Positions 2-6,878 of a stretch of 64,000 nt of DNA are shown one piece after another; the first letter of the stretch is position 1; each line of letters opens with the position of its first letter. The position numbers and the translations under genes are program-made. The DNA comes from Polyangia bacterium (GTDB lineage Bacteria > Myxococcota_A > Polyangia > Fen-1088): positions 1 to 64,000 of the forward strand of contig DATATI010000007.1 in the NCBI GenBank assembly GCA_036268875.1, in the 5' to 3' direction. The notes below the pieces were generated by a model. It did no database searches. It saw only the letters and a list, made by a program, of their open reading frames with translations, and was not told the origin of the DNA.

Positions 2-181
2 ACCTATCCGGATCGCGAGCGCAATTTTTTGAAAAACTTGTGTATCGGAGACCGCCGGGCGAATCTTAATCGACTCAGCAAATGGGCCAAGGGATGGCGT
101 GTGTCTGCGGTGGCCGAGATTTCCTGTAGGACAGCCTCTTATGAACGAAATCATTTGGCAAAGGCAGACATCTCACAATGA
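2..181 (+). CDS. 3' end of an unrecognised gene, running out of frame into the methyltransferase remnant
   Basis: One frame is open from the window edge for 59 codons and stops at 179-181. Its translation is rich in Arg, Asn and Leu and looks protein-like up to about position 135. After that it reads the methyltransferase sequence in the wrong frame. This fits the tail of a different gene joined by a deletion or recombination to the broken methyltransferase. I do not recognise the family, and the start lies outside the window. Confidence 0.25.
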   Translation, partial: TYPDRERNFLKNLCIGDRRANLNRLSKWAKGWRVSAVAEISCRTASYERNHLAKADISQ

Positions 182-1822
182 CCTTGCCCAGGGGGCACGG
201 CATTTGGGCCGCGTCCACGACACGATTCTCGTCTACGGCGGTTCAGATGCGCCCTTTGTTGCACCAGTGTACACACCGTACGACGGTAGCTACGTAAGTT
301 CCCACTACGGAGTCGTTGACGAGAAAGGACGGCGCTTTCAATACGGTGATCTGAGTGGGCCGGGCGGAGCCGCAAAAGGGAACCCTTATTACGAACTCTT
401 CGGGCACACAAGATATTGGCGATATAGCGAGGAGCGCGCGTACGTGAATTGGTCAAGGAAGGCCGTGTCGTCCAGCCATCACCTGGTGCATTGCCTCGAC
501 AGAAGCGACTGCTCGATGACATGCCGGGAATTCCACTGCAGGACGTCTGGTCCGACATCAGTCCTGTCAATTCGCAAGCCAAGGAAGCTCTCGGCTATCC
601 GACCCAGAAGGTCGTCACGCTATTGGAACGAATTATCGGCTTGTCGTGCCCACCCAACGGCCTTGTTCTGGACTGCTTCCTTGGCTCCGGCACCACCGCC
701 GAAGCCGCCGAGCGCCTCGGCCGCCGTTGGATCGGCATCGACAATGGCAAGTACGCCGTCCACCTGGCAAGAAAGCGACTGATCCAATTGCACGGCCAGC
801 CGCGCCCACCGGAAAAGTCGCAGCCTGAATACATAGAGTGCGACCACTGCAAGAACATCGAACGTAAAGAGAAGCCGCAACGCAGCCCCGGCACCTTCAA
901 CGTTCGCCCCTTCACCGTCGAGAACATGGGCGTCTACCAGCGCGCCGAAGCCTGGCAGGACTTTCAGACTCGTCGCTCGGTCTACCGCGACGAGATGATC
1001 CGCGTCTTTGGCGGCGAGCCGGTCGCGCACTCGCCGCTTCTGCACGGCCGCAAGGGCGCGTACTGGATTCACGTGGGACCGCTCGACGGCCCGATCTCGT
1101 CGGGTCAGGTCTGGAACATCGCCCGCGAGGCCCAGCACACCAACACCAAAGCCGTCACCATCCTGTCCGCCGATTTCGACACCCTATCGAGCAGCGAGAA
1201 GGAAGACGTGCAGGCCCGCACTGGCGTGACCGTCACCATCCGGGTGATCCCCGCCCAGGCCATCGACGAGGACCGGCGCCGCATGGAAATGCTGAACCGC
1301 CCGCCCGACGCCCCGATCGAATCGATGGCCATCCCCGCTTTCTACGCGCCGCTGTCGATCGTCCTGTCACCGCGCACCGCCGGGCGCACAGTCGCGCTGA
1401 CCCTGGAACGATGTGAGGTGGACATAGAATCATTCCTGGCCAGCCAGCGGCCGGTCTTGAAACCCACCACCGACGCCATGAGCACCACGGCCCGCCGCAA
1501 AGCCGAAGCCGAAGCCGAAAAGTGGAAAGACCGCGAAGCCGAGCTGCAAAAGTGGCTGCGCAAGGCCGACAGCTGGCAGAAGTTCGTCGATTTCTGGGCC
1601 GTCGACTGGAACTATGGCACCCGCGTCGGCCAGGACGACAAGCCCATCTTCGAGACCGACTGGCAAAGCTTCCGCCTGCGCAAATCCAAGGGTGAAACCG
1701 AACCGCTGGTCTTCATCGCCGAGTTCAAATACCCCGATCCCGGCCAGTACCGGATCGCCGCGCGTGTCACCGACGTCTTCGGCAACGACGGCATCGCCAC
1801 CGTCAACGTCGAGGTGCAGTGA
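141..1822 (+). pseudogene. DNA methyltransferase (type III Mod-like, N6-adenine) remnant, 5'-truncated and frameshifted
   Basis: Homology to site-specific DNA methyltransferases begins abruptly at the segment starting NEIIW (from 144) and runs through the region typical of these enzymes that ends in LLDDMPGIPLQDVW, QAKEALGYPTQK and the SAM-binding motif I, LDCFLGSGTTAEAA. Two lesions are visible. First, no methyltransferase sequence is found in any frame upstream of about 135, so the catalytic DPPY motif, which precedes the target-recognition region in this class, is missing. Second, the reading frame changes near 438-446: the part ending YSEERA and the part starting RELVKEGR lie in different frames, as expected for one lost base in the GCG/GTA context. 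About 300 further residues follow motif I with no recognised domain; a charged, coiled-coil-like stretch precedes the C-terminus. A TTG at 449 could start a shorter intact protein holding only motif I and the C-terminal part. Catalytic activity is unlikely as read. Confidence 0.75.
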
Positions 1823-1918: not shown

Positions 1919-2842
1919 ATGAAGCAGCACAGGTTTCGGCTAACCGGGCCCCGCGCCACTGGCGCCCGCCTGTCGGCCGTGGTGATGCGCGACCTGCTGG
2001 ATGCGCTGATCAACAGCGCCCGGCACGCCGTTCGCCTGCGCGTTGATGGACGCGACATGACCGGCGCGCTTCCGGCATGGCTGGATCGGATCAGCGATCT
2101 GACCGTCCTGCCCCTGGAAGCCGGATCGACACGGGTCGTGGTGGAGGCGCCGACTCTGGCAGAAGCCGCCCCCGACCGATTCGCCCAGGTGGACTACGTC
2201 AGCGCGCTGAGCCCTGACGAAACCAGCGTCGACGTTCTGGAAGAAAGCCTGGCCGACGCTCTTTCTGGCAATGACTCCGCCGACCGTTTCGACGCCGGAC
2301 TTCTCCGGACCTTCGGCCAATTCTCCCGGTTGTGGCGATATCAAATCGAAGCCATCGAGTTCGAAGGAGCGGCGCGCCTTCGTCTGGATCCAAGCGGCAC
2401 CGCTCGACTGGATGCTCTGCAGAAAAAAATGCCCGCCGAGCAGCGAACGATCGTCGTGGGCAAGCTGGATCAACTGCACCACTCGAAACGCATGTTCACC
2501 ATCCGCACCGACGACGGCCAGGACCTCCGAGGCGTGCTGGCGAACGACGATACAGCGGTCGATTCCCTGGCGCCGTTGTTCGGCCAGCGGGCCCAGGTGG
2601 CGGGGATCGCAAAATTTCGGGCGTCGGGAACGCTGTGGCTGATCGAGGCAGATGCCGTGGCTCCTGCCGCCCCGGGTGCTTCGCCTTTATCAAAGGCGCC
2701 GAAGCCGCTTTTTCCTGCTCTCGACGCCCGATCTCTGCACAAGTCCCAAGGCCCAAAGTCGGGGGTCGCGGCGGTCTTCGGTCGCTGGCCAGGTGACGAA
2801 ACCGACTCGGAAATCGAGGATCTTCTCGCAGAGAATTCATGA
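1919..2842 (+). CDS. Unrecognised 307-residue protein, putative partner of the PIN nuclease
   Basis: I cannot assign a family with confidence. The protein has no signal peptide or membrane segment, is acidic overall, and appears to have an alpha/beta N-terminal half and an OB- or barrel-like segment around residues 180-240 (VVGKLDQLHHS... to FRASGTLWLIEAD). A Pro/Lys linker leads to a conserved-looking acidic tail, GRWPGDETDSEIEDLLAE. Its stop overlaps the next start as ATGA, so it is translationally coupled to the PIN-domain gene. This arrangement, a larger protein with an acidic C-terminal tail followed by a PIN toxin, suggests an antitoxin or targeting role. That role is inferred from context only. 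The start is the ATG at 1919. Confidence 0.6.
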   Translation: MKQHRFRLTGPRATGARLSAVVMRDLLDALINSARHAVRLRVDGRDMTGALPAWLDRISDLTVLPLEAGSTRVVVEAPTLAEAAPDRFAQVDYVSALSPDETSVDVLEESLADALSGNDSADRFDAGLLRTFGQFSRLWRYQIEAIEFEGAARLRLDPSGTARLDALQKKMPAEQRTIVVGKLDQLHHSKRMFTIRTDDGQDLRGVLANDDTAVDSLAPLFGQRAQVAGIAKFRASGTLWLIEADAVAPAAPGASPLSKAPKPLFPALDARSLHKSQGPKSGVAAVFGRWPGDETDSEIEDLLAENS

Positions 2843-3285
2843 ACGCCGGCGGGCTGCTGCTACTGGACACAAGCGTCGTCGTTCACCTGTGTCGCGGCGA
2901 CGAGGTGGGGAGCCGGATCGATACTTCATACGGTTTGCGGACGCGCCCGGAGCGGCCGCTGATTTCGGTGGTGACGGTGGGAGAAACGCTGGGGTTCGGC
3001 AAACAACGGCGCTGGGGAGAAGAGAAAATGGCCATCCTGCGTGACGTGCTGACGGAGTTCGTGGTCGTGGACATCAACCACCGCGATATCCTGGAACGGT
3101 ACGCTGAGATCCGGGCACTGGATCGCGGCAGCGGCTGGAACCTGTCGCAGAATGACACCTGGATTGCGGCAACGGCGTCGGTGACCAGAGCCCTTCTTCT
3201 GACGACCGATCGCGATTTCAGCAGAGTTGACGCCGCGATCTTGAGCTGCTCGTACATCGAATCGCAAACCACGAAGGTGCAGTGA
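2839..3285 (+). CDS. PIN-domain ribonuclease, VapC-like
   Basis: This 148-residue protein has the PIN acidic residues in order: Asp in LLLLDTSVV near the N-terminus, Glu in SVVTVGETLG, Asp in SQNDTWIAATA and Asp in LLTTDRDF. PIN domains are Mg-dependent RNases, and most bacterial stand-alone copies are VapC toxins that cut tRNA or rRNA. The length matches VapC (about 130-150). The ATG overlaps the stop of the upstream gene (ATGA), and its own stop overlaps the start of the helicase gene (TGATG), so three genes are coupled. No small AbrB- or Phd-type antitoxin precedes it; the 307-residue upstream protein is the only candidate partner. Confidence 0.85.
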   Translation: MNAGGLLLLDTSVVVHLCRGDEVGSRIDTSYGLRTRPERPLISVVTVGETLGFGKQRRWGEEKMAILRDVLTEFVVVDINHRDILERYAEIRALDRGSGWNLSQNDTWIAATASVTRALLLTTDRDFSRVDAAILSCSYIESQTTKVQ

Positions 3286-6200
3286 TGCCGACCCCCTTTG
3301 ATCGATCGCCCGCGCTGGGCGAGCTGCACGGCCAGGCCCGCGTGATCGCCGAGGTGCAGCGGCGTGTCGATGCCTGGCGTGGATTCAACCTGGGGCGTGC
3401 CGCGGAGCCCTACCCCACCGCGGCGCCGCGCTACGTGCCCAGCGTCGACGGCGAACGGCCGATCAGCGACACCACGATGCACCTTTTGCAGCACTGGTTC
3501 CGTCACGAGCCGCATCAGCTTCGCAAAGGACAGGCGTTCAAATACTGGCCTCACCAGCGCCGGCTGGTCGAGACCTTCATTTACCTTTACGAGGTACGCG
3601 GCATCCGGCGAACCGAGGAGCTGTATCGGCTGGCGGGCGTCGGGGAGTTGGGTCCGCAACGTGACCCGTGGGCCAAGCTGGGCGGCCAGCTGGCCACCGG
3701 TTCTGGCAAGACCAAGATGATGAGCCTGCTCATCGCGTGGTCGTACCTGAACGCCGTCTGTGAAGGGGACGCCCGTTTGGGATTCGGACCGCACGCCATC
3801 TTGATCGCGCCGAACCTGTTCGTGAAGGATCGACTGCTGCAAGACTTTCGCCCGCCCTATGGCGAAACGTCGGTCTTCCTCGCCGATCCCGTGGTGCCAC
3901 CCGCCTTCGACCAGATGTGGAACCTGAAGGTTTACGATTCGGTGACCTGCCCGCGTCTCTTGGATCCGTCAGAGGGCGCGCTGGTGGTCACCAACTATCA
4001 CCAGCTGCTGCGAGAGAGCGAGGAGGCACCGACGCTGATGCAGTGGGAGCAGCACCAGATGGATCTGCTGTTCCATGCTGGCGAGCCTGATCGCCTGGAG
4101 GCTGTAACCACGCCGTTGCTAGAGCGGTTCGCTCGCTCGCGGGGGCTGCTGGTGCTGAACGATGAGGCCCACCACGTGTGGGACGAAGCCGGCCACGGCC
4201 AGTTTGAACAAAAGGCCCGCGACAAGGCGCGCGTCAGCCAGAGTGAAGACGAAGCCACGGCGATGGCCTGGATTCGATCGATTCGCCGATTGAATGGCGA
4301 CGGCCAGACGCCGGGACGGGTGGCGCTGCAGGTGGATCTATCGGCAACGCTGTTCGAGGAGACCGGGTCATCCGCGCGATCGGGCAAGGGCGGCAAGAAC
4401 AAGGCGGCCAAGGAATTCCGACCGACCGACCTCTTTCGGCACACCACGGTCTACTACCCGCTGGCCGATGCCATCCGTGACGGCATCGTCAAAAGGCCGA
4501 TCCTGGAGCGGGTGGAGGTTCGGAACCAGAAGACGGGACAGATCGAAGCGCCGGTGCGCGACGGGCAGCCGAACGCCTGGGAGAAGTACCGAAATCTGCT
4601 GGTGACCGGCATCGAGCGATGGAAGAAGGTCCGGGACCAGTTAATCGACGAAGGAGATCCGCGCAAGCCGATCCTGTTCATTCTGGCGAACGATCGGAAC
4701 GAGGCGCGCGAAGTCGCGAACTTCCTTCGCTACGGCGAGGCCCTGCGCGACGACGTGACGGGTCGGGCCGTCAGTGGTTATCGCAGCAAACCGGACGAGG
4801 CGCCCCTGTTCGTTGATCAAGAGGGCGGCGTCGCGCGATCGACGGTGGTCGAAATCCATATCGGCGAGAAGGAACAGAAAAACGACGCCGCCTGGGAAGA
4901 CGTCCGACGTTCAGTCAACGCCGTTGACCACGACCAGATCCCCAAGATCGACGATGAAGGCCGACCGGTGCTGGACGCCGAAGGCCGACCAGTCCTGGTG
5001 CCCAACCCTTACAACGTCGTGGTCAGCGTCATGATGTTGAAGGAGGGCTGGGACGTCCGCAACGTGAAGGTCATCGTTCCCCTGCGCCCCTGCGACTCAC
5101 GCACGCTGACCGAGCAGACCCTGGGTCGCGGCCTGCGCAAGATGCACCCGCCGATCCTCGACGAGGAGGGCGGCGCCTTCATGAAGACGGAGGAGCTGTA
5201 CGTCATCGAGCATCCTTCGTTCAAGGCGATCCTGGATCAGATCCAGGACATCATCGAAGAACGTTCCTCCGATGAAATCGAGCACGCCCGCGAGTACGTG
5301 CCGATTTTGCAGAAGGCCGACCTATCCGAGCGACAGGCGCACGGTGTGCGACTGGTTCGGTTCGAAGGATTGCGCGAGGTCGTTCCCGACTGGCGCAAGA
5401 CGTTCGACAGCGCCCGCATTCCCGCGCTCTCACCGCAACTGGCCTGGATGGAAGAGATCGCCGACACCGAGATCAAGACGTTCTTGAAAGAGGCCTTGGC
5501 GGCGACGGAAACCGAGGGCCAGGTGTTCATCGTCCCCGAGACACCCTCCTATCGCGATTTCGACCATTTGATCGAGATCGCCATGGCCGTACCGATCCTA
5601 CGAGAGATGCGCACCAGCTTTCACCACAAGACCGCGGTCAAAGGCATCGTGCGCGAGTTTCTGGAGCGCAAGACCTTCAGCCTTCCTGCTGGCTTGCCCC
5701 TGTCCTTCGACCGGATTCCCGAAGGTGACTATGCGCGAATAGCGCTGGGAAACCTGGCGCGGGCCGAGGTCATTGCAGCGGTCAAGCGAGCCTTGTTACC
5801 GCCCCTGCAAGAAGCCATCACCGCCGAACGCCGGGCGACCGAGGCGCACATGTCAGAGCGCCGGGCCGAAGAGCTGGAGGGATACCAGGCGCTGAAGAAA
5901 CACGTCTTCGATGCGCCCCAGAAAAGCCCGTTCGATCGAGCTGCGCTGGAGAACGCCGACGAAGAGGCCGTCGCGCATCTCCTGGACGCCGCGAAGGACG
6001 TCACCGGGTGGATCTACAACCACCGAAGCGGCGTCGGCTACTCCATCGAGTACGACTGGCAGGGAATGATTTCGCACTACTATCCCGACTTCATCGCGCG
6101 GGCGCGCATCGGCGAGGTGTTCCACAACTTCATCATCGAGGTAAAGGGCCGCTTCGACGATCGTGATCGCACCAAGGCCGAGCGCGGTCAGCGCTACTGC

Positions 6201-6878
6201 GACCTGCTGACCGAGCACGATCGCGAACCCTGGCATTATCTTTTGTTACTGGAAAACGAGCCGGTCGGCCGTCAAGACATCACATGGTGGGGCAAGCAAT
6301 CGCGGACAGAGATCGGCGACCTGTCGAGACATCTGGAAGGACTGCCGTTGCTGCCCAACATGGATTCGCAGCCGAGACGTGACCGTTCCAAGCTGGAGAT
6401 TCTGAAAACCGTGCCGGTCGACCAACAATTCCGCGAGGCGGTCCCGGTTCACGACCTGGCCGCCGCGGCCGGCGGATTCAGCTCTACCCAAACGCCCGAG
6501 ACCATCGGCTGGGTCAAGATCCACGCGCAACGAATCCTGGACCGCCGCATGTTCGTCGCCAAGGTGGTGGGCCGGTCGATGGAAACCGCGATCCCCGACG
6601 GAAGCTGGGCTCTTTTCCGATTGTTTCCCGACGGAGCCCCCCCCGCCGCCACAGCGCTCGATGGGCGCCGTGTGGTCGTCCAGCTGCGCGACGCCACCGA
6701 CCCCGAAACCGGAGGCCGCTACACGGTCAAGCGCTGGCGCGTGACCGCCACCGGCCCGGACGGCGGCGCCGCGGAGATTGAACTACGTCCGGACAACCCG
6801 GGGTTCAAGACAATGCGGATGCGAAGCGAAGACGGCGACATCCGGGTGATCGCGGAATTTCTCGAAGTGGTGGGCTGA
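3285..6878 (+). CDS. SF2 helicase, PD-(D/E)xK nuclease and LexA/S24-like domain fusion (type III restriction Res-like)
   Basis: The protein has 1197 residues. The helicase core has Walker A ATGSGKT (about 137-143), the DEAH box LNDEAHH (about 292-298), motif III LSATLF, and motif VI in LTEQTLGRGLRK, as in ResIII and type III restriction subunits. The region near residues 930-960 has YYPDFIA followed by IIEVKGRFDD, a PD-(D/E)xK nuclease core. The last 130 residues resemble the LexA/S24 family: VVGRSMETAIPDG carries the nucleophile Ser, and a Lys in YTVKRW about 50 residues on could complete a Ser/Lys dyad. An alternative GTG start lies one codon upstream. The gene is coupled to the PIN gene. 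The family predicts ATP-dependent DNA translocation and cleavage, while the C-terminal domain suggests self-cleavage or a protein-binding switch. Normally a Mod methyltransferase protects host DNA, but here the only candidate is broken. Confidence 0.85.
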   Translation: MPTPFDRSPALGELHGQARVIAEVQRRVDAWRGFNLGRAAEPYPTAAPRYVPSVDGERPISDTTMHLLQHWFRHEPHQLRKGQAFKYWPHQRRLVETFIYLYEVRGIRRTEELYRLAGVGELGPQRDPWAKLGGQLATGSGKTKMMSLLIAWSYLNAVCEGDARLGFGPHAILIAPNLFVKDRLLQDFRPPYGETSVFLADPVVPPAFDQMWNLKVYDSVTCPRLLDPSEGALVVTNYHQLLRESEEAPTLMQWEQHQMDLLFHAGEPDRLEAVTTPLLERFARSRGLLVLNDEAHHVWDEAGHGQFEQKARDKARVSQSEDEATAMAWIRSIRRLNGDGQTPGRVALQVDLSATLFEETGSSARSGKGGKNKAAKEFRPTDLFRHTTVYYPLADAIRDGIVKRPILERVEVRNQKTGQIEAPVRDGQPNAWEKYRNLLVTGIERWKKVRDQLIDEGDPRKPILFILANDRNEAREVANFLRYGEALRDDVTGRAVSGYRSKPDEAPLFVDQEGGVARSTVVEIHIGEKEQKNDAAWEDVRRSVNAVDHDQIPKIDDEGRPVLDAEGRPVLVPNPYNVVVSVMMLKEGWDVRNVKVIVPLRPCDSRTLTEQTLGRGLRKMHPPILDEEGGAFMKTEELYVIEHPSFKAILDQIQDIIEERSSDEIEHAREYVPILQKADLSERQAHGVRLVRFEGLREVVPDWRKTFDSARIPALSPQLAWMEEIADTEIKTFLKEALAATETEGQVFIVPETPSYRDFDHLIEIAMAVPILREMRTSFHHKTAVKGIVREFLERKTFSLPAGLPLSFDRIPEGDYARIALGNLARAEVIAAVKRALLPPLQEAITAERRATEAHMSERRAEELEGYQALKKHVFDAPQKSPFDRAALENADEEAVAHLLDAAKDVTGWIYNHRSGVGYSIEYDWQGMISHYYPDFIARARIGEVFHNFIIEVKGRFDDRDRTKAERGQRYCDLLTEHDREPWHYLLLLENEPVGRQDITWWGKQSRTEIGDLSRHLEGLPLLPNMDSQPRRDRSKLEILKTVPVDQQFREAVPVHDLAAAAGGFSSTQTPETIGWVKIHAQRILDRRMFVAKVVGRSMETAIPDGSWALFRLFPDGAPPAATALDGRRVVVQLRDATDPETGGRYTVKRWRVTATGPDGGAAEIELRPDNPGFKTMRMRSEDGDIRVIAEFLEVVG

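Follow-up and report, generated by a model that had tools for sequence, protein, structure and literature searches.

Why should the nuclease subunit of a restriction system end in the self-cleaving domain of a LexA-type repressor? The question is raised by a gene in a 64,000-nucleotide stretch of a Polyangia bacterium genome (assembly GCA_036268875.1, contig DATATI010000007.1, positions 1 to 64,000; the window). A single open frame at 3282-6878 on the forward strand, starting with GTG at 3282, encodes 1198 amino acids, or 1197 if the alternative ATG at 3285 is used. The initial annotation had read a superfamily 2 (SF2) helicase, a PD-(D/E)xK nuclease and an S24-like domain in this one frame, and the open reading frame (ORF), the Pfam matches and the conserved motifs bear this out. 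Pfam places ResIII at residues 136-303 and Peptidase_S24 (PF00717) at residues 1065-1191, the latter at 24.6 bits against a curated gathering cut-off of 23.3. The parts of the protein are as follows.

3282-6878, forward strand: Res-like restriction subunit of 1198 residues with SF2 helicase, PD-(D/E)xK nuclease and C-terminal S24 tail; orthologues at loci L035-L038 and L048.
3690-3713, forward strand: helicase motif I, LATGSGKT, residues 137-144; invariant or nearly so in the homologue alignment.
4161-4172, forward strand: helicase motif II, DEAH, residues 294-297; invariant or nearly so in the homologue alignment.
5115-5138, forward strand: helicase motif VI, Q612 and GRGLR at residues 615-619; invariant in the homologue alignment.
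6084-6146, forward strand: PD-(D/E)xK nuclease core, P935 and D936, then E953-x-K955; invariant in the homologue alignment.
6390-6875, forward strand: S24/LexA-like tail module, residues 1037-1198, identified by PF00717 above cut-off, the tail profile, and an AlphaFold2 model with its fold match in the PDB.
6468-6473, forward strand: predicted self-cleavage site between Ala1063 and Gly1064, preceded by L-x-A-A-A, placed by the tail alignment and LexA-like spacing.
6576-6578, forward strand: predicted catalytic Ser1099 in a GxSM motif, present in 85 of 85 tails.
6729-6731, forward strand: predicted catalytic Lys1150 in a T-V-K motif, present in 85 of 85 tails.

The C-terminal part had been proposed to be a LexA/S24-type domain, and structure prediction agrees with the Pfam match. 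AlphaFold2, given 44 tails as input, returned a tail model with a predicted local distance difference test (pLDDT) score of 88.6. When this model was compared with the PDB by Foldseek, all matches at E <= 0.001 were LexA or hyper-cleavable lambda repressor (probability 1.00, best E 3e-6), among them the RecA-bound LexA structures 8trg, 8s7g and 8gms. A profile search with the tail also found LexA, with UmuD at weaker E-values. Conservation of the Ser and Lys had been set beforehand as a test of the assignment, and the equivalents of Ser1099 and Lys1150 are invariant in every tail aligned; the fold match to LexA implies that the two residues lie close together in the predicted structure.

The predicted cleavage site is conserved to a similar degree. 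Its Ala is found in 84 of 84 tails, the following Gly in 81 of 84 and a Phe three positions after that Ala in 83 of 84, while a leading Pro and a Leu before the site each exceed 95%. In 76 of 83 tails, P3-P1|P1' is one of AAA|G, VAA|G and IAA|G. The cleavage-site Ala and the Ser are mostly spaced by 35-39 residues, compared with 36 in the LexA of the same genome. We take the resulting A-G-x-F-S/G pattern to resemble the cleavage sites of lambda CI and UmuD. The window tail thus shares with LexA, lambda CI and UmuD the S24 fold, the Ser-Lys dyad and an Ala-Gly site about 36 residues before the Ser. It differs in what it is joined to, a helicase-nuclease in place of the DNA-binding domain of LexA and CI or the short arm of UmuD, so that the predicted substrate is a defence enzyme; the Pfam scan found no LexA/CI-type N-terminal helix-turn-helix in the window protein, the head being the helicase-nuclease. 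Self-processing of the nuclease, suggested at the outset, is well supported by the dyad, by the Ala-Gly site at LexA distance, by recurrence of the tail on other enzymes and by close relatives that lack it.

The fusion is real and maintained. The tail is present in full-length homologues at 63-84% identity to the window protein, and in an alignment of 11 homologues the ATGSGKT (138-144), DEAH, SAT (354-356), GRGLR and PD..ExK (953-955) motifs are invariant or nearly so, as are S1099 and K1150. The ratio of nonsynonymous to synonymous substitution rates (dN/dS) of the tail against five full-length homologues is 0.14-0.25, similar to the helicase and nuclease values, showing that the tail is under purifying selection. 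The tailed full-length homologues, the low dN/dS and the LexA fold match together argue that the fusion did not arise by chance.

The head is best described as a distant relative of the BPTD_3080 family, a type III-like restriction subunit. The NCBIfam model for BPTD_3080 (NF046055) matches residues 20-988 at 253.4 bits, below its cut-off of 800; the window protein shares with this family the helicase-nuclease architecture over those residues and a methyltransferase neighbour, but the 970-position model stops before the S24 tail. An SF2 motor and a PD-(D/E)xK nuclease beside a methyltransferase are also features of the type III Res subunit (EcoP15I) and of type I HsdR; to our knowledge, the characterised members of neither class have an S24 tail. 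The adjoining Mod methyltransferase expected of a type III Res is found upstream as a PF01555 match. The RE_endonuc domain of type III Res (PF19778) was absent from the window protein in the Pfam scan and is present in a tailed type III Res elsewhere (L097).

How widely the tail is distributed was determined by running the tail profile on a one-per-species bacterial genome collection, which matched 144 loci, of which 80 were retrieved (72 genomes). The matches span more than a dozen phyla, including Myxococcota, Acidobacteriota, Pseudomonadota, Nitrospirota, Planctomycetota, Gemmatimonadota, Chloroflexota, Spirochaetota, Elusimicrobiota, Omnitrophota, Verrucomicrobiota and Actinomycetota. Heads were clustered (78) and then identified by Pfam and PADLOC. 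Type I HsdR accounts for 41 of the 78, BPTD_3080-like Res for 14 including the window protein, Druantia DruE for 12 and type ISP or IIG restriction-modification (R-M) enzymes for 4; the remaining tailed heads include a HIT-PLD-SF2 type IV-like protein (L076), the canonical type III Res at L097 and SLFN-g3 helicases (L121, L148-L150). As judged from these assignments, at least six unrelated antiviral enzyme classes bear a LexA-like tail, and on defence enzymes the module is usually C-terminal. XRE helix-turn-helix repressors (L027, L075, L141, L144, L146) also have a homologous S24 module, complete with AAG and Ser-Lys dyad; unlike the tailed enzymes, they are transcription factors.

Trees of tails and heads show that the tail is a portable, transferable module. 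On the tail tree the head classes require 24 changes where 12 would be the minimum, such that the tail crosses enzyme classes; three Res tails, for instance, form a group with one HsdR tail at 99%. Among HsdR, at least three distinct lineages of heads gained the tail. Within the main tailed clade lies a plasmid-borne HsdR of Ketogulonicigenium vulgare that lacks the tail and is complete as a type I subunit; it is 78-81% identical to the tailed proteins over ~1000 residues. Type ISP and type III relatives, too, can be aligned only as far as the tail. Two tails occur in 8 of the 72 genomes, and one genome (G018) has three tailed enzymes and one repressor. Concerted spread of tails within a genome is not general, as the partner tail ranks anywhere from 2nd to 84th among all tails. 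A phage origin of the module is disfavoured, 50,697 phage records having yielded no match; one uncultivated viral contig and one plasmid record contain the module, which is otherwise found mainly on chromosomal or unassigned contigs.

Several matches depart from the usual arrangement. Type ISP enzymes at L109 (1661-6145) and L110 (4926-9527) extend ~198 residues beyond the tail, and their tails are identical although the metagenome-assembled genomes are labelled as different phyla, possibly a binning mix-up or a recent transfer. On a Halomonas plasmid (L153, 8971-9450) the S24 module is its own ORF, overlapping the end of a 686-residue ORF in another frame. In two uncharacterised proteins, at L147 (1-2718, reverse strand) and L151 (1-2364, reverse strand), the S24 domain is divergent, lies in the N-terminal half and lacks the AAG.F site, and both were left out of the tail count; L147 gave no match in Pfam or PADLOC.

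What might the tail do? LexA-type domains cleave themselves at an Ala-Gly bond when bound by the RecA filament, and family membership in S24/LexA suggests by analogy that the window protein responds to DNA damage. The best explanation, for which we consider the chances roughly even, is that the tail is a RecA-triggered, self-cleaved off-switch that gives the enzyme built-in restriction alleviation. In this reading, a type III-like R-M system would have had its motor-nuclease subunit extended by a detachable tail, a complete self-cleaving domain of the LexA/UmuD type, and in the undamaged cell the tailed enzyme would restrict foreign DNA. Upon damage to host DNA, RecA filaments on single-stranded DNA would bind the tail and stimulate Ser1099 and Lys1150, the stimulated dyad would cut between Ala1063 and Gly1064, and the tail would come off. 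The cut enzyme would then end in ...LAAAA-COOH (..AAA or ..VAA for other tails), a LexA-like end and plausible ClpX degron, and would be degraded or inactivated, sparing host DNA with unmodified or single-stranded sites during repair. HsdR, Res, DruE, type ISP and the other defence enzymes may have gained the module for the same purpose. We infer cleavage, its RecA dependence, degradation through ClpX and the off direction. The genome encodes lexA, and three genes of the recA family and two of clpX score over their family cut-offs.

Several published findings are consistent with such a switch. Cleavage of LexA uncovers latent ClpX signals (PMC10584840), and UV light, 2-aminopurine and nalidixic acid suppress type I restriction, with HsdR being degraded by ClpXP (PMC3874165, PMC4231737). 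As in ClpXP-mediated alleviation of EcoKI, the proposed outcome is removal of the R subunit by proteolysis after DNA damage; in EcoKI, however, HsdR is recognised while translocating (PMC4231737), whereas the trigger of the tailed enzymes would be built in.

Other observations weigh against the off-switch. The tail model has the AAAG within a short helix spanning model residues 35-41 and not clearly in an extended cleavable loop, and the AlphaFold2 confidence drops right after this helix. The full-length model (pLDDT 50.7, 11 sequences) is too poor for contacts between tail and enzyme. As a sign of a degron AA|G carries little weight, because the protease itself needs this sequence and the XRE repressors also have it. 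A LexA-fold regulator, IrvR, acts without RecA (PMC7101444). Finally, the window copy may not be functional because its partner methyltransferase is damaged in the assembly.

The same cleavage apparatus would serve an on-switch, in which the uncut tail restrains the nuclease until cleavage, prompted by phage-induced RecA*, sets free an active and possibly suicidal enzyme, as in abortive infection. Some heads, DruE and the SLFN-g3 helicases, are likely toxic effectors if unchecked. However, HsdR makes up about half of the heads, and since R-M works on incoming DNA before the SOS response, an enzyme kept inactive until damage would come late; moreover, the untailed HsdR from K. vulgare is a complete type I subunit. 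We regard activation by cleavage as unlikely, though worth keeping in view. Two points favour the off direction: R-M subunits, which make up most of the heads, should act on DNA as it enters and ahead of SOS, and host DNA bears unmodified or single-stranded sites while it is being repaired.

The match of the tail fold to RecA-bound LexA, on heads that are mostly DNA-acting enzymes or motors, would also suit a tail that is mainly a RecA-filament-binding adaptor to single-stranded or recombining DNA, with cleavage only ending the contact. A pure adaptor would have no need of an invariant Ser-Lys dyad and cleavage site, and we consider recruitment improbable. LexA and lambda CI are both RecA-responsive. 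They account for every structural match at E <= 0.001, which makes it somewhat more improbable again that the tail cleaves itself independently of damage and without RecA, cued by a phage antirepressor, nucleotides or redox, the behaviour for which IrvR provides a precedent. An inert or decaying fusion, or an assembly artefact merging two genes, would fit the position of the window at a contig start and its frameshifted methyltransferase, but the same junction in independent genomes, the purifying selection on the tail and the invariant catalytic residues make this very improbable.

The Res gene belongs to an operon with a methyltransferase, its partner, which lies upstream.

132-1822, forward strand: C-terminal part of a Mod-like N6/N4 DNA methyltransferase (Pfam PF01555; 70% identity by tblastn to the intact methyltransferase of L048).

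Compared with the 785-residue L048 homologue, its start is lost at the contig edge and there is a frame shift near 437, which is either an assembly error or a sign of a decaying gene, the two being indistinguishable. The operon start of the window system lies off the contig. In L048 the intact methyltransferase abuts its Res gene. Between the methyltransferase and the Res gene of the window, at 1919-3285, are genes for a 307-residue protein and a PIN-domain protein with overlapping starts and stops, a possible toxin-antitoxin pair that also stands beside a tailed HsdR in L068 (6085-7181, reverse strand). We rejected this pair as a part of the system, as it is absent at every other locus with a window-type Res and L068 is its one other occurrence. 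The downstream genes, thioredoxin-like and DsbD-like by eye, are not defence-like.

Other loci among the matches hold further combinations. At L076 (5737-9522) one protein joins a ThsC2-like HIT domain, PLD, an SF2 helicase, an HNH repeat and S24. Genes like Septu PtuA/PtuB separate hsdS from hsdR in type I systems, and in many of these the HsdR is tailed (L062, 3970-5223; L122, 5267-5917; L157, 5048-6992), the ATPase being found in 20 loci. At L096 (8719-12598) a 254-residue S24 protein overlaps the start of a Gabija-like gajA-gajB pair by 4 bases. The head at L152 looked Shedu-like by eye but had no family match in Pfam or PADLOC, and this identity is not claimed.

In the open-access literature searched (subscription literature not covered), defence enzymes with S24 tails are nowhere described, and S24 is unmentioned in papers on R-M biology (PMC12707154), YprA and Druantia helicases (PMC12458937), Druantia III (PMC13192584) and BREX (PMC12839542). 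The parts are known, while their combination and its spread appear new. They touch on the old question of how defence nucleases spare a host with damaged DNA. In E. coli, restriction alleviation relies on host ClpXP, and type IC enzymes take a different, assembly-based route. The pairs of tailed and untailed HsdR, ~80% identical, offer a natural comparison. If the off-switch is real, the tail would be a ready-made biotechnology tag for damage-controlled proteolysis. More broadly, it may be that one mobile LexA-like module, exchanged among unrelated defence enzymes (type I, III and ISP R-M, Druantia and Schlafen-type helicases), is a general damage switch of bacterial immunity that ties their activity directly to RecA filaments without transcription, a proposal about equally apt to prove right or wrong. 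If true, a damage-sensing tail common to otherwise unrelated systems would link the SOS response to immunity directly and post-translationally.

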